This document shows, piece after piece, positions 29,598 to 49,834 of a DNA stretch of 64,000 nucleotides; the stretch's first letter is position 1; the number at the start of each line of letters is the position of its first letter. Location: contig JACRPC010000048.1 of NCBI GenBank assembly GCA_016214125.1, forward strand, positions 1 through 64,000. Reading direction: 5' to 3'. This DNA comes from Rhodospirillales bacterium (GTDB taxonomy: Bacteria > Pseudomonadota > Alphaproteobacteria > Rhodospirillales > WMHbin7). Both the position numbers and the translations under genes were made by a program. Under the pieces are notes generated by a model, which saw only the letters and a list, made by a program, of their open reading frames with translations, was not told the DNA's origin and did no database searches.

Positions 29598-29682
29598 TGG
29601 TGCGGGCGAAGGGACTCGAACCCCCACGCCTTGCGGCACTGGAACCTAAATCCAGCGCGTCTGCCAGTTCCGCCACGCCCGC
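29598..29682 (-). tRNA. tRNA-Leu (anticodon UAG)
   Basis: The minus strand reads GCGGGCG at the 5' end and CGCCCGC-A-CCA at the 3' end, a 7-bp acceptor stem with encoded CCA (29598-29600). The anticodon stem CTGGA/TCCAG encloses loop TTTAGGT, giving anticodon UAG (CUA leucine codon). A long variable arm (GCCGCAAGGCGT) marks a class II tRNA, and GGTTCGAGT is the T-loop. Length 85. It sits upstream of tig. Confidence 0.95.
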
Positions 29683-31883: not shown

Positions 31884-33416
31884 TTGATCACACGCATCGT
31901 TTCCGGGCACAGGGCCGGAGTGGCTTTCGCTTGTCTTGCCCTATTTTCGGTTTTTGCCGCCGAGCCCGCTCTGGCCTCCGAAGCGTCCAAGGCGCTCACC
32001 AATAAAGCCGTCGAGGCGCTCCGCGCCTCCGACTTCGCCCTTGCCGCAAGGCACTCCCGGGACGCCATCAAGGCCGACCCCACCGATGGCCATGCCCATT
32101 TCCTTTCCGCCATCGCCGCCAATCGGGAAGGCCGGTTCGCCGACGCTTTGGCGGCGCTCGACACCGCCGCCAAATTGGGAAATTCGTCGCCCGAAATGGC
32201 CTTTGAAGGCGGCTGGGCGCTTGGCGGAATCGGGCTCAATGTCGACGCCATCAACGAGCTTAACCGCTATGAGCGGATGCGACCGGGCAGCGCCGCCACC
32301 AGCGCGCTCCTCGCCCGGACCTACGCCGCCTCGGAATTCCACGGAAGTGCGCTCCGCCACAGCGCCGAGGCCAAACGCCGCGATCCGGCTCTGACGCCCG
32401 CCATGCTGCTCTTGGAAGCGAAATTGGCCGCCGATCAGGGCGACCGGGCGAAGGCCGAGCAGATCGGCAATCAAATCCTCGCCGACTATCCGCAATCTTT
32501 GGAAGCCCGCCGGATAAAGCAGGCGCAGACGCGGGGCGCCAAAAGCGGCAAGCCCTGGGAGGTGCATGGTGAAATAAGCTTCGGCTTCGATAGCAACGTC
32601 ATCGGCATCGGCGACGAGATCACCCGCCCCTCCACCATCTCGCGGCAGAATTCGCTTTTTAGCCACATCGCGGCCGGAACCTCCTACACGATCGCCACCG
32701 ACCCCCGAGGTTCGCTGACCTTCGGTTATGACGGCGGCGGCACCGTCAATTTCCAGGTCGACGGCTTCAACAGCCATTCCCACACGCCCTATCTCGAATA
32801 TGCGCGCCGGCTGTCCGAACGCTGGATTGGCAAGGTGATGATTGGCGCCAACGCGTCCTTTGTCGAAGGCGACGGCCTCTACTCGGTTTCCGGCATCGGC
32901 CAAGCCAGCGCCATGTACCAGTGGGAACCCGGCAGTGCCACCGAGATCAAGGCCGCCATCGTCGGCACCGGCTTCGAGATGAATCCGGCGATGTGGGAGC
33001 AGAACCGCGACGGCGTCACCTACAGCCTGGGCGCGATCCATCACCAACGGGTTCCTGGAACCAAGCTTGATCTGCGCGCCGGCCCGACCGTCTCGATGGC
33101 GGTCACCGAGGGCAGCGATCATGACTATGTCGGCTTCGGCCTTCAGATCGGCGCCCGCCATCCGCTGTGGTGGGGCGTGGTGGGCGACATCGGCTATTCC
33201 TATACCCACACCTGGTATTCGCATCCGCACAGCTACACGAATTTCATTGACGACCGCGACGACGACGTTCACCGCTTCGCCGCCCGCCTGACGCGTCCGA
33301 TCACCGGCAACATCACGGCCTTCCTGCGCTACGATTACCTGCACCAGGAATCGAACATCGTGCTCTACAGCTACGGCCAGCACCAAGCCGCCATCGGCTT
33401 GGCGGTCCAATTCTAG
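31884..33416 (+). CDS. Outer-membrane protein with N-terminal TPR domain and C-terminal beta-barrel
   Basis: A 510-residue exported protein starting at TTG with GGGGAGG 6 bases upstream. A signal peptide ends near AEPALAS (residue 32). TPR-like helical repeats fill about 34-215 (for example ALRASDFALAARHSRDAIKADP). From about 225 to the end it is built of alternating strands with aromatic girdle residues, starting GEISFGFDSNVIGIGD and ending in GLAVQF with a terminal Phe, the C-terminal signal of BAM-inserted barrels. Architecture recalls BcsC- or SLAM-type (TPR plus barrel) exporters of polysaccharide or surface protein. It is followed 17 bases later by a secreted partner. Confidence 0.75.
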   Translation: MITRIVSGHRAGVAFACLALFSVFAAEPALASEASKALTNKAVEALRASDFALAARHSRDAIKADPTDGHAHFLSAIAANREGRFADALAALDTAAKLGNSSPEMAFEGGWALGGIGLNVDAINELNRYERMRPGSAATSALLARTYAASEFHGSALRHSAEAKRRDPALTPAMLLLEAKLAADQGDRAKAEQIGNQILADYPQSLEARRIKQAQTRGAKSGKPWEVHGEISFGFDSNVIGIGDEITRPSTISRQNSLFSHIAAGTSYTIATDPRGSLTFGYDGGGTVNFQVDGFNSHSHTPYLEYARRLSERWIGKVMIGANASFVEGDGLYSVSGIGQASAMYQWEPGSATEIKAAIVGTGFEMNPAMWEQNRDGVTYSLGAIHHQRVPGTKLDLRAGPTVSMAVTEGSDHDYVGFGLQIGARHPLWWGVVGDIGYSYTHTWYSHPHSYTNFIDDRDDDVHRFAARLTRPITGNITAFLRYDYLHQESNIVLYSYGQHQAAIGLAVQF

Positions 33417-33433
33417 AGAGGGAGGAAGACGCC

Positions 33434-34474
33434 ATGAAACCGATCGCCGCCCGCCTTTCCGCCCGCCTCCTCACTCTCGCGGGTCTGGTTCTCCTGCTGG
33501 GCACGGCCCTGGCTTCGCCCGCCCAGGCCCAGGGCAGCGGCCAGCCCTGCACCCATCTCGGCAAGCAGGTGACCTGCCCGCCCGGCGTCAAGCCGGGCAC
33601 CAACTCGGCCGCTTTCAATGCCGATGGCTCCATCACTTGGGGCGACGGGCGGCGCACCCCGGCGGCGCGCTGCTGCACCGACTGGCCCGTCACCAACAAT
33701 CAGAGCCTGCGCGACAACTTCACTCCCAAACCCGTTATGCCGACGATGGAGGATTTCGTCGACATTCTCCTGACCGGTGGTGGCGAAGGCTACGACCGGT
33801 GGCTGGTCAACGCTTACGAATTGGAAGCTCAAGAAGCCGAGTTCGCCGAGGAAGAACGCATAAGGCAACGGTACTACCAGCAATTATTCGATGACATGAA
33901 TCGCCGACTCGCGGCCGAGGCGCGAGCCCGGTCCGCCGGCATGAGCCCGGGGCCCGGTCAGCCCGCCCCCCAACCTCCGAAGATCGAAAACAGGGCCGAT
34001 GGCTCGACCAAGCTTACGCATGCCAACGGGTCGATCACCATCATTACGGCCGATGGGCGGGCGCTGGCGAGGCTCGCCGCTCCGCCATTTAACCTTCCTC
34101 CTCCTCAGCCCGCGATGACGGGCATGACGCCGCCTCCGGCATCGGACGGCGCTCAGGATTCATCGGTGCCCTCGATCCTCGACGATCTGGCCTATCCCGA
34201 CACCTTTACCCGCAACCGCGACCAGCGGGTGAGCGAAAACGCCGACCGGGCGGCCAAGGAAAAGGATTTCCGCAAGGAACTGGAAAAGCTGGCCGATGCC
34301 GGCAACGAGGAAGCCCGCGAAACCTTGGGCACCATGCAGCGCCGGATGCTGGTCGAGAAGGCCAAGACGGACCCCAATTTCCGCGATCTGGCCGAAAAAC
34401 TGGGCGTCGGCCAGGGCCAGCCGGCCCCCTCGCCGCCCCCGGCGCCCGCCGGGTCGGGCAGCGGCCGCCGCTAG
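33434..34474 (+). CDS. Secreted proline-rich protein of unknown function
   Basis: A 346-residue protein I do not recognise. It has a signal peptide ending near ASPAQA-Q (residue 32), then a cysteine-containing N-terminal region (C39, C48, CCTDW near 78), a charged helical segment (about 115-165), a proline-rich linker, a G/T-rich stretch DGSTKLTHANGSITIITADG near 190, another charged helix (about 255-320) and a proline/glycine tail. AGGAAG lies before the ATG. Being 17 bases downstream of the TPR/barrel gene, it is a likely cargo or periplasmic partner. No lipobox and no catalytic motif seen. Confidence 0.65.
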   Translation: MKPIAARLSARLLTLAGLVLLLGTALASPAQAQGSGQPCTHLGKQVTCPPGVKPGTNSAAFNADGSITWGDGRRTPAARCCTDWPVTNNQSLRDNFTPKPVMPTMEDFVDILLTGGGEGYDRWLVNAYELEAQEAEFAEEERIRQRYYQQLFDDMNRRLAAEARARSAGMSPGPGQPAPQPPKIENRADGSTKLTHANGSITIITADGRALARLAAPPFNLPPPQPAMTGMTPPPASDGAQDSSVPSILDDLAYPDTFTRNRDQRVSENADRAAKEKDFRKELEKLADAGNEEARETLGTMQRRMLVEKAKTDPNFRDLAEKLGVGQGQPAPSPPPAPAGSGSGRR

Positions 34475-34489
34475 GCGGTGGCTGCCGCG

Positions 34490-34592
34490 CCATTGCTTGA
34501 CGGAACGTAAGCCGGAGGTCATTCTCGCCGCCTTGTTTATCAGGCGGACCGGACATGCTGCTTCTGATCGATAATTACGACAGCTTCACCTA
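34490..34592 (+). repeat. 103-bp direct repeat, copy A (duplicated trpG leader and start)
   Basis: Identical over 103 bases to 36009-36111 except for A versus G at 34553/36072. It contains the trpG leader hairpin, ribosome-binding site and first 12 codons. After 34592 similarity breaks down (one inserted A, then substitutions). The two copies, offset by 1,519 bases, flank the histidine-kinase gene. Confidence 0.93.
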
Positions 34593-34593
34593 A
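34555..34593 (+). pseudogene. Truncated trpG start (12 codons then stop)
   Basis: The copy A repeat encodes [12 protein letters not shown] followed by TAA, exactly the first 12 residues of TrpG at 36074. An extra A at the edge of the repeat creates the stop. It retains the ribosome-binding site, so a 12-residue peptide might be made, but it cannot be an amidotransferase. Confidence 0.85.
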
Positions 34594-34682
34594 CAATCTC
34601 GGGCGCGGTTTTGGCAAGCTGGAAACAGCCAATCGGCCCGACAACTCGGCGAAGACACCCTCGTTTTTTTCGATCACTCACC

Positions 34683-34700
34683 ATGTGACGGCCATCACAT
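34683..34700 (+). promoter_or_regulatory. Perfect CRP-type palindrome upstream of the histidine kinase
   Basis: ATGTGA-CGGCCA-TCACAT is a perfect inverted repeat that contains the full CRP consensus TGTGA-N6-TCACA. The -10 hexamer TATAAT lies at 34723-34728, so the predicted start is near 34735 and the site is centred near -43. This is close to the class II activator position (-41.5). No -35 hexamer is present at the expected place, in agreement with activator dependence. The rest of 34593-34804 is AT-rich, without a gene. Confidence 0.65.
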
Positions 34701-34804
34701 CCCGCCTGTCTAAAATATATTATATAATGTCATAAAATGTGCGCGGCATTAATTTAGAAAATGACGCGCCATTCTACAATCGGGGCATGTCCGGAGGATG
34801 ATCG

Positions 34805-35929
34805 ATGGCAAGCAACATCGAAGGCATGCATTTAAATGAACCCACAAATGTCAAATTCCCAAGGTTGTCGCTCAAGCCGGTTTACGTCTATGTCCTAAGT
34901 TCGGCTCTGACCCTTGCGATCCTGGTGATCGATGTCTTTTCGCCTGGAGGGGAATCGCATGAAGATCTCTATTATCTCCTCCTGCTGTTCTGCCTGCTGC
35001 TCACAGATCCCCGCGCTCCGGTCGTGTTCGCGTCGGCCATCACGCTTTGCATCGTCGCCGGTTATTCTTTGGGCGCCCTATTGACGCCGGAATTTCATGC
35101 GACTGGAACGGTTTCGGCCTACCATCAGACCATCACGATCGCCATTCTGTGGCTGATTGCCTTCCTGCTCCGCCTTCACAAGATACAAGAGCAGGAAATG
35201 AAGGCGCAACGCGCCCGCCTGGAAAGTCTCAATCTGGAAAAAAGCCGGATGTTCTCGATCATCGCCCATGATCTGAAAAGCCCCCTCAACGCCGTCCTCG
35301 GCTACACCGAGTTGATCGGCCTTTCGAAGGATAAGAGTTCGCTAGAGACCTTAACCGCCTATGCCGCGCGGGCGCACGATGCCGGAAGCCGCCTCTTGAC
35401 CTTGCTGGATTCCCTTCTGTCCTGGGGCCGTCTGCACATGGAAGGCACCGCGTTTCAGCCGCGTCCGATCCACTTGGCCTGGATTATCGACCACGCCGTT
35501 CAGGCCCTGTCGCCTTCGGCCACGCAAAAAAACATAACCATCGCGGTCGATGTTATCGAAAACGCCGACAACATGATTCAGGCCGACGAATCGATGGCCG
35601 ACACCATCGTTCGCAACCTCGTCAACAACGCCATCAAATTCACCCCCGAAGGGGGAACGGTAACGATCCACACCGCCCAGGCCGCCGATCGGGCCGGGGT
35701 GACGGTCGTCGATTCCGGGCCGGGAATTCCCCCCGAACGAATGGCGAAGCTTTTCGCTGGGCTGTCCACCCCGGGAACCAAGGGCGAGACCGGCAACGGC
35801 CTTGGTCTTTCCCTTTGCCGCGATCTGGCGGAAAAAAATGGCGGCACGATCACCGCTGAAAGCGCCCTGGGTGAGGGAACGGCCTTCACGCTCATGCTTC
35901 CAACCCCGCCGTCTGCCGATCGGCGATAG
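34805..35929 (+). CDS. Membrane-bound orphan sensor histidine kinase
   Basis: A 374-residue sensor kinase. Four hydrophobic segments occupy about residues 20-135 (for example VYVYVLSSALTLAILVIDVF), then a coiled linker (about 120-150). HisKA contains the phospho-acceptor H in FSIIAHDLKSPLNAVLGY near 150-167. The ATPase domain has N box VRNLVNNAIKFTPEGG near 277, G1 DSGPGIPP near 304 and G2 GNGLGLSLCRDLAEKNGG near 330. All catalytic boxes are intact. GGAGG precedes the ATG. There is no response regulator gene nearby. It is the only gene between the two trpG-leader repeats. Confidence 0.9.
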   Translation: MASNIEGMHLNEPTNVKFPRLSLKPVYVYVLSSALTLAILVIDVFSPGGESHEDLYYLLLLFCLLLTDPRAPVVFASAITLCIVAGYSLGALLTPEFHATGTVSAYHQTITIAILWLIAFLLRLHKIQEQEMKAQRARLESLNLEKSRMFSIIAHDLKSPLNAVLGYTELIGLSKDKSSLETLTAYAARAHDAGSRLLTLLDSLLSWGRLHMEGTAFQPRPIHLAWIIDHAVQALSPSATQKNITIAVDVIENADNMIQADESMADTIVRNLVNNAIKFTPEGGTVTIHTAQAADRAGVTVVDSGPGIPPERMAKLFAGLSTPGTKGETGNGLGLSLCRDLAEKNGGTITAESALGEGTAFTLMLPTPPSADRR

Positions 35930-36008
35930 CCGAAGCGGAGCCGAAGGCCGTTTCGATTTGAGCCATCCCCGGACGCCGGCCTTGAGCCGGTGAAGGCAAT
36001 AGACCCGT

Positions 36009-36111
36009 CCATTGCTTGACGGAACGTAAGCCGGAGGTCATTCTCGCCGCCTTGTTTATCAGGCGGACCGGGCATGCTGCTTCTGATCGATAATTACGAC
36101 AGCTTCACCTA
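36009..36111 (+). repeat. 103-bp direct repeat, copy B (functional trpG leader)
   Basis: Partner of 34490-34592 with one mismatch. It carries the leader and first 12 codons of the intact trpG. A small CCGGC/GCCGG hairpin (35976-35990) lies just upstream and may mark the end of the kinase transcript. Confidence 0.93.
36047..36066 (+). promoter_or_regulatory. Leader hairpin that covers the trpG ribosome-binding site
   Basis: CCGCCT (36047-36052) pairs perfectly with AGGCGG (36061-36066) around an 8-base loop. AGGCGG is the apparent ribosome-binding site, 7 bases before the trpG ATG (36074). The stem would therefore mask translation initiation unless opened. The same hairpin exists in copy A. 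Regulation is inferred. Confidence 0.4.
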
Positions 36112-36667
36112 CAACCTCTGGCACTATCTGGGCGAGTTGGGGGCCGAAATCGTGGTCAAACGCAACGACGCCCTTAGCGCCGCCGAGGCTCTGGCGCTCG
36201 ATCCGGCCGGCATCGTGCTTTCCCCAGGTCCTTGCGATCCCGACAAGGCCGGCATCTGCCTGGAACTGATCGCCAAGGCGGCCGGAAAAGCGCCGATCCT
36301 GGGCGTCTGCCTGGGCCACCAAGCGATCGGCCAGGCCTTCGGCGGGCGCGTGGTGCGCGCCCCCCAGCCGATGCATGGCAAGGTCGATGCCATTCGCCAC
36401 CAAGGCAGCGGCTTGTTTGCCGGCCTGCCCTCGCCGCTTCAGGCCACCCGCTATCATTCCCTGGTGGTCGAGCGCCAAAGCCTGCCCCCGATTCTTCACA
36501 TCGAGGCGGAAAGCGCCGACGGGCTGATCATGGGCCTTCGCCACGCCATTCATCCCATCTTCGGGGTCCAGTTCCACCCGGAAAGCATCGCCTCGGAGGG
36601 TGGGCACGCGCTCCTCGCCAATTTCCTGGCCGTCTGCGGCCTGTCTCCCAAAAGGATCGCCGCCTGA
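36074..36667 (+). CDS. trpG: Anthranilate synthase component II (glutamine amidotransferase)
   Basis: A 197-residue class I glutamine amidotransferase giving ammonia to TrpE for anthranilate formation in tryptophan synthesis. [15 protein letters not shown] opens it, the nucleophile is in [16 protein letters not shown] near residue 76-91, and the His/Glu pair is in [15 protein letters not shown] near 163-177. Its stop overlaps the trpD start (TGATG). trpE is not in the window. The 5' end is duplicated upstream. Confidence 0.95.
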
Positions 36668-37695
36668 TGACCGCCTCGCTGGCCGCCATGAAGACGCTGT
36701 TGGGCCGACTGGCCCAGGGCGCCACCCTTGCCGAAGCCGAGGCCGAGGAGGCCTTCGACATCATCATGTCGGGCGACGCCACCCCGGCGCAGATCGGCGC
36801 CTTCCTGATGGCGCTCAGGCTTCGCGGCGAGACGGTCGAGGAAATCGCCGGCGCCGCCAAGGCGATGCGGGCCAAAATGCTGCGCGTCAAGGCGCCCGCG
36901 GGCGCCATCGACATCGTCGGCACCGGCGGCGACGCCACCGGCACCTACAACATCTCGACCGCGGCGGCCCTGGTGGCGGCCGGATGCGGCGTCGCCGTCG
37001 CCAAGCATGGCAACCGGGCGCTGTCCTCGAAATCAGGCGCCGCCGACGTGCTGGCGGCGCTGGGGGTCAAGATCGATGCCGATCTGTCCTTGGTCGAGAA
37101 ATCCCTGGTCGATGCCAAGATCGCCTTCCTGATGGCGCCCCGCCATCACGGCGCCATGCGCCATGTCGCCGGCCCGCGAGTCGAACTGGGGCACCGCACG
37201 GTGTTCAACATCCTGGGGCCGTTGTGCAATCCGGCCGGCGTGACCCGCCAGATGACCGGCGCCTTTTCGCCCGATTGGCTGGAGCCGATGGCCCGGGTGC
37301 TGGGAAGACTCGGCAGCGAGCGAGCCTGGGTGGTGCATGGTCAGGGCATGGACGAATTGGCCACCACCGGCCCTTCGCAAGTCGTCGAACTGAAGGACGG
37401 CGCCATCCGCCGTTTCGAGGTGACGCCCGAAGAGGCGGGCTTGAAGCGCGCCACCTTGGCCGAGCTGACCGGCGGCGATCCTGCCCACAACGCCCAGGCT
37501 TTGCGCGACGTGCTGGCCGGCAAGCCTTCGGCCTACCGCGACATGGTGGTCTTGAACGCCGCCGCCGCCCTGGTGGTGGCCGATCGGGCCCCCGATCTCA
37601 AGGCGGGTGCGGCGCTGGCCGCCAAGGCGCTCGACAGCGGCGCCGCCCGCACGGTTCTCGAACGCCTGATCGCCATCAGCCAGAGCGCCCCGTGA
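36667..37695 (+). CDS. trpD: Anthranilate phosphoribosyltransferase
   Basis: A 342-residue TrpD joining anthranilate and PRPP. The PRPP-binding loop VGTGGDATGTYNISTAAAL is near residue 80, KHGNRALSSKSGAADVLAALG near 108-128 and the second conserved region GPLCNPAGVTRQMTGAF near 181-198. The ATG at 36667 overlaps the trpG stop; the 3' end overlaps the trpC start (GTGA). Confidence 0.95.
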   Translation: MTASLAAMKTLLGRLAQGATLAEAEAEEAFDIIMSGDATPAQIGAFLMALRLRGETVEEIAGAAKAMRAKMLRVKAPAGAIDIVGTGGDATGTYNISTAAALVAAGCGVAVAKHGNRALSSKSGAADVLAALGVKIDADLSLVEKSLVDAKIAFLMAPRHHGAMRHVAGPRVELGHRTVFNILGPLCNPAGVTRQMTGAFSPDWLEPMARVLGRLGSERAWVVHGQGMDELATTGPSQVVELKDGAIRRFEVTPEEAGLKRATLAELTGGDPAHNAQALRDVLAGKPSAYRDMVVLNAAAALVVADRAPDLKAGAALAAKALDSGAARTVLERLIAISQSAP

Positions 37696-40253: not shown

Positions 40254-40320
40254 ATACAAGGTATAGACAGTTCGCCGCTTGGCGCCCGGGGGCGCGACCG
40301 GCCTGAGAGGGAGTTCACCC

Positions 40321-41046
40321 ATGTTGACCAAGAAGCAGTACGAGCTTCTGCTGTACATCGACCGCGCCTTGAAGGAATCGGGCGTGTCGCCCTCCTTCGA
40401 CGAGATGAAGGATGCGCTCAAGCTGAAATCGAAATCGGGCATCCACCGCCTGATCACCGGCCTTGAGGAACGCGGCTTCCTGCACCGCCTGCCGCATCGC
40501 GCCCGGGCCCTCGAAGTCATCCGCCTGCCCGAGAACATGGCCGACGAGCGGCCGGGGCGCATGCAGCCCGCCACCCCCACGGCGCGCTACCAGACCGCCA
40601 ATGTGGTGCGGCCCAATTTCAAGCCGCCGCTGCCCGGCCGGGTGCTCAACATCGAAACCACGGCGGCCCAGATCCCGCTTTGGGGCAAGATCGCCGCCGG
40701 CACGCCGATCGACGCGCTGCGCGACCATTCCGCCACCGTCGACGTGCCCGTCACCCTTCTGGGCAGCGGCGAGCATTACGCCCTGGCGATCGAGGGCGAT
40801 TCGATGGTCGATGCCGGCATCATCGAGAACGACACCGTCATCATCCGCCGCTGCGACACCGCCGAGAACGGCACCATCGTGGTGGCCTTGATCGACAACA
40901 ACGAGGTGACGCTGAAGCGCCTGCGCCGCAAGGGCGATTCGATCGCGCTGGAACCCGCCAACAAGAAGTACGAGACCCGCATCTTCGGCCCCGACCGGGT
41001 CAAGGTGCAAGGCCGGCTGGTCGGGTTGCTCAGGACGTATAATTGA
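40321..41046 (+). CDS. lexA: LexA repressor, alphaproteobacterial type
   Basis: A 241-residue SOS repressor with autoproteolysis. N-terminal winged helix-turn-helix [20 protein letters not shown], with [22 protein letters not shown] near residue 23-44. The cleavage site appears as AAGTP near 122-126, the catalytic Ser in [10 protein letters not shown] near 160, and the Lys in NNEVTLKRL near 195. GAGAGGGAG precedes the ATG at 40321; an upstream frame extension lacks similarity. It is under its own LexA box. Confidence 0.95.
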
Positions 41047-41097
41047 GGGTGCGCACGTTGGCTAAAAGCCTTGAGCTTACGCACTCGGAGTCCGACA

Positions 41098-41943
41098 ATG
41101 AACGAACAAGCTTTTCGGCATGATTATTCAAATTTATTTGAAGAGGTCACGCCAATTGAAAAACAAAAAATAAGACCCACGAAGCGCGTTCAAGGCGGGA
41201 CCACAACGTCCGACGTGGTCATGAGCGCTGCGGTAGGCGATAATAGCGGCCTATTTCAGCAAATTATGGCGTTGCATGTGGAGCCCGGCTCGGTCGTTGC
41301 CGACATTACCTACGGAGGGGGGGTGTTTTGGAGGCTAATTCCAAAAAATCAATATTTACTTCTTCCTACCGATTTAAAAACTGGAACATCCTGGGATAGG
41401 CTTCCCCATAAGGCGAACTCTGTTGATGCCGTCATATTTGATCCTCCCTATATGGAAGGTCTCTATCGCAAGAACAAATCGGAATTAGCTGGTAGCGGGA
41501 CGCATTCCGCCTTCCGCCATTTTTATTCGAATGGCAAAGAGACCAGGGAAGGCCGGAAATGGCATGACGCTGTGCTTGAAGCATATCTATCGGCTCTTCC
41601 AGAAGTTATAAGAATTCTAAAGCATAATGGGAAATTTATTGTAAAATGCCAAGACGAAGTCTCAGCCAATCGACAAAAACTGACGCATGTTGAGCTGATT
41701 TGGGCCCTTGAAGCGGCTGGGTTCTATTGTAAGGATTTATTCGTTTGCATAAGACACAACAAACCAGTGGTATCACGACTTGTAAAACAGATTCACGCAC
41801 GAAAAAATCACAGTTATTTCCTTGTATTCGAGCGCCAGGATCATTTAAAAAGTCTATCGCATTCCAATTTTCGTATATGGCTTACAGATATTGCACGGTC
41901 CGCCTGTAAACATATTATTGGATCAAAGAGAAAAGATCGGTAG
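41098..41943 (+). CDS. DNA methyltransferase of a restriction-modification pair
   Basis: A 281-residue SAM-dependent DNA methyltransferase. The SAM-binding motif is [13 protein letters not shown] near residue 66-78 and the catalytic motif DPPYMEG near 117-123, in the order I then [19 protein letters not shown] near 180 follows. DPPY marks amino-methyltransferases acting on N6-adenine or N4-cytosine. GGAG lies 8 bases before the ATG at 41098; a TTG at 41071 is possible. Codon use and base composition are far more AT-rich than the flanking genes, a sign of transfer. It converges with the endonuclease gene, overlapping by 29 bases. Confidence 0.78.
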
Positions 41944-42544
41944 TCCATTTTCCATCAAGCGGCCATGTGATTTGTTCTGTGCTCGCCAGCAGATACTCCC
42001 TATCCTCTATATTGTATTTTTTACTAACAGTTAGACGACAATCGCGGTTTCTCATATAGGCAAAGCTCCAGTCGCCCGTGAATGGAAACAACGGGACAGC
42101 CAAGAAGTCATATTCCCCCCTTTGATAGCATGTTGTCTGTACATAATTGCCGTTAGGAAGATGAATTCTCCGGGCATCCGAGCCGTCATTCTGAACATCA
42201 GCAACCAATCGTCCAGAATTGATATCGCGGCTTATTGAATTTGTCTGCATGGATTTCAATTGTACGGAATATGATTTTCCACGATAAATAAAAGTTCTAT
42301 CGGATTTATTCCTGCTTCTATCATGGTCATCGTGTTTTGCCACTTCGGTGATTTCAGTGCTTACAGAGCGAATGTGCTTATCAAACATCTCCTCGGCGAT
42401 ATAGCCGAGGATCATGCCACGAAGGCTCGGAGCCCGTTTTATCGACATGATGAGGTCTTCAGGCTTCACAGAATCTATGATTGTTAAAACGCGCTGTCTT
42501 GCCTGAACCGCCTCTGGGTCGTTCTTATCTTTCCGGGACCTCAC
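41915..42544 (-). CDS. Putative type II restriction endonuclease
   Basis: A 209-residue protein starting at GTG, which I do not match to a named enzyme. It has a PD-(D/E)xK-like arrangement: a helix with Glu in [12 protein letters not shown] near residue 48-59, then Asp in [10 protein letters not shown] near 80-89 and QLKSMQ near 95-100 (a Q-x-K in place of E-x-K). This, plus its convergent overlap with a DNA methyltransferase and equally low GC, makes a restriction enzyme the best guess. Recognition sequence unknown. It might instead be an accessory protein of the same islet. Confidence 0.55.
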
Positions 42545-48601: not shown

Positions 48602-49834
48602 TTAGGGCCAAATGGCGGATCGATCGACCTCCCCATCCCACCCGACCACATCGATCGGCGCCTTGCCACCTCTATTTGCGGCGTTCACGACGGCTGCCAG
48701 ATTCACCGGCCGATAGGGTTGCGGCTTGCCATCGGAATCCTCGGGACAATCGTGTAACACCGCCGGGAGATTCCACCGTTGCAGGGCCGAGATGTGTAGG
48801 TATTCATTGACCGTCGTCAGGCCTTTCGGAACGAGATTGCGCCGGTCGTAATCCTTGAACGTCTGGCGGAACCATTCCCCGAACCCATCCCCTTCCGGTA
48901 CGAGCTGATTGATCAGGCGCTGGTAAGGATAGAGCTTAGAATCCACATAGAAACCGCTGCGGCTTTCATAGCCTTTTCCATCCACGTATTTCGAGGCGTC
49001 GGCAGCGACGATGTCCTTCCAAGAGATGGCAAGCTCCGTATGCTTGCGCACCCGCTTGATCATCCAGTCCAAGGTGATGTCGGAGAGTTTATTGTCGGCA
49101 TAGGAGCCACCGATATTGGAGTGGACGCCTGCAAACCATACTTGTTCGACGATCTGCCCGTCGAATGTCGGCTTTTCCTTTGGGCCCACCCAAAGCGTGG
49201 GCGCGAATGCGCTGCGCTTTTCGTCGATCGCCACCGCATGGAGTGCAACATCGACGGCCGAGCTAAGCTGAACGTCGTGAAACCGGTAAATGTCCGGAAG
49301 AAACCGCCGGCCCAAATCGCCAGGAATGCCGAGCGATCCCACCGTATCCCAGACGCCGACGCATTTGATTCGAACATCGGCGTAGCGCGCAAGATTAAGG
49401 TCTTGGATGGCTTTCTTGCGCGTGTCCAGCTTGGCGGTGTTGCGGCAGATTTCGATGACTTTCACCAAATCCTTTCCCAGACGCTCCGGATGCAGCAGCC
49501 CGCCGGCGGCGATAAATCCCACGAGGCTGCGTGCCGTGTAGGCTCCGCGCGAAAAACCGAAAACGTAGATTTCGTCGCCCGGCATGTAATTGTTGGCAAG
49601 GAAGCGATACCCGTCCATGACGTTCTCGGAAAGCCCCTCGCCCGAAGCGCCACCAACGATTTTATCGAGCATATTCCCGGTTCCCACGCCCCTGTCGTAA
49701 AAGGTGATTTGCCGGGTCTTGAAGGGCGAATCTTCGCATGGAGTCGCGCGCAACAATTTGACGACATTGGTCGATTGGGAGCCGTTATCGGGCGTGTTCC
49801 AGGTCCCGTCGAAAAAAACGACCAAACGAGCCAT
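48602..49834 (-). CDS. DUF2235 alpha/beta-hydrolase, Tle1-like phospholipase candidate
   Basis: A 410-residue DUF2235 protein. FFDGTWNTPDNGSQSTNVVK near residue 7-26 and the nucleophile elbow VFGFSRGAYTARSLVGFI near 93-110 (GxSxG) are the hallmarks. VWFAGVHSNIGGSYADN near 222 gives the later Asp/His-containing block. Relatives include type VI secretion phospholipase effectors (Tle1), but here no VgrG, immunity or T6SS gene is adjacent. AGGAGGAAAAG before the ATG is a very strong ribosome-binding site. GC is somewhat lower than its neighbours. Confidence 0.8.
   Translation of the reverse strand: MARLVVFFDGTWNTPDNGSQSTNVVKLLRATPCEDSPFKTRQITFYDRGVGTGNMLDKIVGGASGEGLSENVMDGYRFLANNYMPGDEIYVFGFSRGAYTARSLVGFIAAGGLLHPERLGKDLVKVIEICRNTAKLDTRKKAIQDLNLARYADVRIKCVGVWDTVGSLGIPGDLGRRFLPDIYRFHDVQLSSAVDVALHAVAIDEKRSAFAPTLWVGPKEKPTFDGQIVEQVWFAGVHSNIGGSYADNKLSDITLDWMIKRVRKHTELAISWKDIVAADASKYVDGKGYESRSGFYVDSKLYPYQRLINQLVPEGDGFGEWFRQTFKDYDRRNLVPKGLTTVNEYLHISALQRWNLPAVLHDCPEDSDGKPQPYRPVNLAAVVNAANRGGKAPIDVVGWDGEVDRSAIWP

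Follow-up and report, generated by a model that had tools for sequence, protein, structure and literature searches.

An orphan histidine kinase gene lies between two 103-bp copies of the trpG 5' end in a Rhodospirillales genome

An orphan histidine kinase gene (HK) in this Rhodospirillales bacterium is bracketed by two almost identical 103-bp copies of the 5' end of trpG, the second of which continues into the intact gene. We regard the duplication as real and favor, at a probability of roughly 0.55, a one-off recombination between non-allelic sequences that put HK at the trpG 5' end and left a repeat on both sides of it. The window, by which we mean the whole 64-kb stretch of DNA that was analyzed, covers positions 1 to 64000 of an 81-kb contig (C44) of a draft genome (G000; 3.99 Mb in 54 contigs). 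The features discussed below are all on the forward strand:

34490 to 34592, + strand: copy A of the 103-bp repeat, comprising the trpG promoter, leader, and 12 trpG codons (from sequence comparison)
34497 to 34525, + strand: promoter-like pair of copy A (TTGACG, 17-nt spacer, CATTCT)
34555 to 34593, + strand: truncated trpG start, a 12-codon minicistron with its stop (TAA, 34591 to 34593)
34593 to 34623, + strand: possible residual likeness to trpG past the repeat, 20/30 bases after a one-base insertion (from shifted comparison)
34593 to 34804, + strand: A+T-rich stretch 5' of HK (48.6% GC) with weak promoter-like sites at 34694 to 34723 and 34753 to 34780
34805 to 35929, + strand: orphan HK, 374 aa, with HisKA and HATPase_c domains (from Pfam and GC content)
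35930 to 36008, + strand: spacer between HK and copy B
36009 to 36111, + strand: copy B of the 103-bp repeat, continuing into intact trpG (from sequence comparison)
36016 to 36044, + strand: promoter-like pair of copy B (TTGACG, 17 nt, CATTCT)
36074 to 36667, + strand: intact 197-aa trpG, for the glutamine amidotransferase of anthranilate or aminodeoxychorismate synthase (TIGR00566)

Sequence comparison places the two copies, offset by 1519 bp, exactly where the earlier note had put them, with a single mismatch (A at 34553, G at 36072). Its description of their content also agrees with the reading frames: the trpG frame in copy A, which follows the leader, is closed by TAA after codon 12, and copy B begins the 197-aa trpG. 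The left edge of the repeat lies 7 bases 5' of the TTGACG-17-CATTCT pair, and the right edge falls after trpG codon 12. A search of the window for direct repeats (minimum, 40 nt; seed, 14) found none longer than this 103-nt pair, the runner-up being 100 nt long and 80% alike. Rfam returned two subthreshold matches over 33000 to 37000, none of them inside either repeat. For the leader of copy B, a single sequence, folding gave a z score of −2.24, with 5 of 200 shuffles as good. An assembly artefact is very improbable as the source of the repeat; the genome is a draft in 54 contigs, but the copies differ at one base, have different flanks, and sit within an 81-kb contig, and most read lengths exceed 103 bp.

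The genome was also surveyed for similar pairs in 44 stretches, the window included, that total 885,295 bases or ~22% of G000 (pair length, 50 to 1500 nt; identity, at least 90%; spacing, 0.3 to 6 kb). One further pair passed this filter (locus L143, 16622 to 16684 and 17547 to 17609); it belongs to the ends of two paralogous genes and is no analogue of HK between its repeats, of which the ~22% sample contained no other case, although others elsewhere in the genome are possible. The paralogous genes of L143 (16616 to 18227) stand in tandem beside a 589-aa open reading frame (ORF) and have in common a 63-bp, 97% identical 3' end (RIDPFTGQPLPPPPDAP). That they are immunity genes is only a guess.

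Against TIGR00566, whose cut-off is 121.05, the intact trpG reaches 243.9 bits, as is expected of a TrpG/PabA amidotransferase. Its promoter-like pair stands 58 bases before the start codon in both window copies. For comparison, trpG was matched in 38 of 40 genomes (G000 included), and the best 30 places were taken as loci, 29 of them from other genomes; one (L007), which has no upstream sequence, was left out of the promoter count. A loose form of the pattern (TTGAC[GCT], 14 to 20 nt, and a set of −10 variants) occurs 5' of trpG in 20 of the remaining 28 relatives, against a mean of 0.125 for mononucleotide shuffles, a contrast that is somewhat flattered since the pattern was devised after viewing the upstream sequences. 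The strict form, TTGAC[GC]-17-CATT[CG]T, counted by eye, is found in 12 of the 28. In the relatives, the distance from the pair to the start codon ranges from 53 to 117 bases.

Because the repeat spans this pair, a second copy of the trpG promoter stands in front of HK, which may now be transcribed from it as a by-product. Alternatively, HK could have been upstream of trpG originally, with the 103-bp trpG promoter segment copied and then retained as its driver. The pair in copy A is complete and correctly oriented, and the whole repeat has undergone one change, as such promoter duplication would predict. However, the copied piece holds 12 codons and a stop that would be superfluous for HK, and the gap between that stop and the start of HK is 211 bases, with promoter-like sites lying nearer, which makes this origin unlikely.

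The edges of the copies behave differently on the two sides. To the left there is no likeness (7/20 bases, a value equaled by 55% of other positions). To the right of copy A, allowing shifts of −1 to +2, identity to trpG is 13/20, 20/30, and 23/40 bases, values for which 244 of 214,996, 4 of 214,896, and 96 of 214,796 control positions, respectively, were equally good; in a rougher test based on local alignment, the score was reached at 16 of 5,000 window positions drawn at random, trpG itself included. The likeness to trpG is thus suggestive, and if it is real, copy A would be a mosaic or partly decayed copy rather than the product of one clean event. With such a shift, 20 of the 30 bases that come after copy A agree with trpG, so the likeness does not seem to end cleanly at 103 bp.

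These data bear directly on the chief rival of a one-off recombination, which holds that copy A is the relic of an older duplicated trpG that has mostly decayed or been replaced by the HK region and in which recent gene conversion from copy B restored 103 bp. The abrupt fall in identity, from 99% to ~67% over the 30 bases that follow the one-base insertion, speaks for this rival. The likeness is gone beyond those 30 bases (8/36), though, and 34593 to 34810 is absent among the best matches listed for the trpG profile HMM. Furthermore, the stretches of the relatives that were searched contain no second trpG-start fragment, apart from two 12-base chance matches. We therefore see conversion of an older duplicate as a possible explanation but clearly a less probable one than a single recombination.

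The origin of HK itself points in the direction of acquisition. The protein has the domains of a two-component sensor, HisKA (42.7 bits; cut-off, 26.9) and HATPase_c (93.7 bits; cut-off, 26.4), and its N-terminal half is putatively in the membrane, judging by eye from hydrophobicity. It is the sole convincing gene between the copies, as previously proposed; the domain scan there covered HK itself, and two antisense ORFs overlap it. Its GC content is 57.9% and its GC3 is 0.70, compared to 65.0% and 0.80 for trpG. Among 317 genomes of the order, with six candidates scored in each, 41 (G000 included) reach an E value of 1e-48 with HK, and the best match outside G000 is 48% identical and covers residues 124 to 366 only. 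The first 145 residues are matched in 6 of 385 genomes of the class (G000 included), the best other match having an E value of 4e-7 and 27% identity. A scan of genome contigs with six exact peptides returned three loci, none of them close; tblastn against plasmids returned three Methylobacterium hybrid kinases that are 37 to 40% identical over the kinase part; and a search of PDB sequences matched the kinase part only. These results suggest that HK is lineage restricted and probably acquired. Weak near-full-length matches (27 to 30% identity) do occur in 3 of 40 relatives (G008, G020, and G030), and, given these, distant vertical descent is possible.

The absence of trpE from the window had been read as a further sign of insertion at the trpG start, on the grounds that trpE is normally just upstream of trpG. 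This argument fails, as the absence has no bearing on the duplication. All four family relatives have trpE far from trpG, at ~120 kb (G001), at ~250 kb (G002), or on another contig (G003 and G004), and the separation is widespread in the order. Of the 29 order loci, 24 have at least 1 kb upstream of trpG, the 5 shorter ones having been set aside, and in only 1 of these 24 is trpE found within ~1.2 to 1.5 kb upstream. Larger stretches from the order give trpE-trpG distances of 1.0, 5.6, and 6.4 kb, and others ~7 and 8.5 kb. Since trpE is distant from trpG in the family relatives, the split most likely predates the insertion, and loss of trpE as an insertion scar is ruled out by the separation in both family and order relatives. 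In G000, trpE is on contig C52, behind ppiD (SurA/PPIase type) and followed by comEC, gltX, and gltA. The recurrence of a TTGAC-type pair 5' of trpG fits the separation of trpG from trpE in the order.

The surrounding gene order is otherwise shared in part with relatives. The four family relatives have the order trpG-trpD-trpC-moaC-moeA-lexA, and tig lies ~6 kb upstream of trpG in the window and in the three relatives whose stretch extends that far (L055 to L057). Apart from trpE, trpG, and trpD, gene names are our own assignments made before the Pfam check; those checked against Pfam are clpP, tig, trpC, moaC, moeA, lexA, ppiD, comEC, gltX, and gltA. Just upstream of copy A (31884 to 34474) are genes for a TPR/beta-barrel protein and a 346-aa protein without a Pfam or NCBIfam match, the gene for the latter stopping 15 bases short of copy A; tblastn at an E value of 1e-8 matched neither protein in the stretches of the family relatives. 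A tRNA-Leu gene (29598 to 29682) near tig was considered as a possible island target.

At the other end of the block, just past lexA, the region from 41071 to 42544 has a low GC content (~42 to 49%, against 64% for the window) and encodes two proteins: one is DNA methylase-like, although its 23.1 bits fall short of the Pfam cut-off (26.7), and the other, of 209 aa, has no Pfam match. It looks like an acquired module, perhaps of a restriction-modification type. Of the 11 stretches from relatives in which lexA is seen, 8 have comEC following it (the exceptions are L055, L057, and L059). In G000, comEC instead follows trpE on C52 (L053, 4214 to 9360) and the low-GC module comes after lexA (window positions 40279 to 42544), a placement that indicates rearrangement at the lexA end of the block too. 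Farther along, the protein encoded at 48602 to 49834 has a phospholipase catalytic domain of the Tle1-like type (Pfam PF09994).

The unit between the copies shows few signs of mobility. It holds no transposase, no integrase, and no resolvase gene, and matches to tyrosine integrase (PF00589) and resolvase (PF00239) are lacking on all of C44, in line with the earlier note. Of 15 inverted pairs with a length of 16 nt or more, none flanks the unit, and ungapped comparisons of the unit's ends over 10 to 24 nt, with four choices of end, were at chance level, since between 50 and 294 of the 300 random pairs did equally well. The duplication, at 103 bp, is not the short target duplication of a DDE transposon or insertion sequence. 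The unit was found once in G000 (40 of 69 first-look candidates scored), and a DNA search with it returned two plasmid records and one phage record, with short conserved pieces covering 3 to 6% of the query. Viral contigs contain no exact copy of a 33-base piece of the leader. On current evidence, the lack of integrase and resolvase matches on C44, the lack of terminal inverted repeats, and the shortness of the pieces in plasmids and phages lead us to reject a known mobile element. As a gene-sized, lineage-restricted segment between direct repeats, the unit does conform to a repeat-flanked variable segment.

The trpG 5' end could also have served as the attachment site of an integrative element (or of its remnant or satellite), with a copy of that end rebuilding the gene and its promoter, as happens at dusA and prfC. 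The integrative elements at those two genes are larger than the HK unit. Six tyrosine-integrase matches and one resolvase match elsewhere in G000 would be compatible with this origin, as would the fact that the target keeps its promoter and start, which is also the case for IMEVchUSA3 in dusA as described in part of PMC8409611. None of those recombinase matches is on C44, however, and the unit has one convincing gene, a single copy found in the genome, only short pieces in plasmids and phages, and a leader without an exact match in viral contigs. The dusA attachment repeats, according to the relevant portion of PMC8409611, are 21 bp long rather than 103. Flanking repeats and an intact trpG are indeed present, but plain recombination would leave the identical picture. 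On the whole, we regard an integrative origin as unlikely.

Two other forms of movement can be considered. The suggestion that the locus represents an unrecognised way of transporting sensor genes is unsupported, given one copy, no analogue in the 22% genome sample, and short plasmid and phage pieces; a plain recombination accident suffices, so no novel transport is needed. A small circularisable unit made up of HK and the 103 bp, devoid of a recombinase, which moves by homologous exchange at the trpG start and brings along the promoter and first codons of its target, thereby doing no harm on insertion and placing the sensor under the trpG promoter, is highly unlikely. What stands of the original proposal of HK insertion is a kinase without a close match in sampled relatives, a direct duplication, and an intact trpG; its trpE argument and novel transport do not.

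In the one-off event that we prefer, illegitimate or homology-facilitated recombination would have joined HK-bearing DNA to a point within the trpG start or next to it. This could have happened after DNA uptake from another strain or through template switching, for example. Only joints that left a complete promoter and start before trpG would preserve tryptophan synthesis, and the event would have survived because trpG retained both. Such a selection filter, acting with no dedicated enzyme, would explain the repeat edges, 7 bases before the −35 box and within the coding sequence. We prefer a single filtered event because the repeat covers just the complete promoter and the gene start; the direction of change, i.e., insertion, is our reading of the arrangement. 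Further points counted in favor of this recombination are the ComEC-type competence protein encoded in G000 (Pfam Competence), the GC3 gap of HK, the single genome copy, the lack of integrase and resolvase on C44, the lack of a close HK match in order and class genomes, the bracketing of promoter to codon 12, and the loose promoter in 20 of 28 relatives without a second trpG-start fragment. End joining at a staggered break is weakened as a route, as Ku was not found.

Comparable loci have been described. In the E. coli, S. aureus, and S. pyogenes alignments treated in part of PMC2884548, 10 to 18% of variable segments lie between direct repeats, the flanking repeats are <30 bp in 66 to 94% of cases, and most of the variation at these microdiversity loci is proposed to stem from illegitimate recombination. 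The HK unit is like them, as far as that account goes, in being a gene-sized segment with no recognised mobility gene and a direct repeat on both sides. It is unlike them in that its repeat of 103 bp is a long one to result from a chance joint and spans a promoter and gene start. The dusA elements, in the portion of PMC8409611 that describes them, encode an integrase, show an imperfect repeat of 21 bp, and alter the N terminus of the target gene. As in these and prfC 5'-end elements, the interrupted gene at our locus retains or regains a promoter and start; unlike in them, the start of trpG duplicates the native one, and the unit lacks an integrase. Large tandem duplications arising by transformation are reported in a part of PMC3784515.

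Homology-facilitated illegitimate recombination during transformation was reportedly described by de Vries and Wackernagel in 2002, and we propose that the trpG event may have been like it in involving foreign DNA that shares homology on one side but hardly any on the second. Our literature search turned up no paper that combines at least three of the following four topics: trpG, histidine kinases, direct repeats, and promoter duplication.

The HK-trpG arrangement by itself does not point to a new mobile element and looks like a one-off recombination accident. It is a clear case of a gene placed at the start of a biosynthetic gene, harmlessly so since the promoter and gene start are duplicated. 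Direct repeats of 103 bp should permit deletion of HK through homologous recombination, and the locus could act as a natural reporter for deletion between them. Through the same duplication, an orphan sensor may have come under the control of a tryptophan gene.
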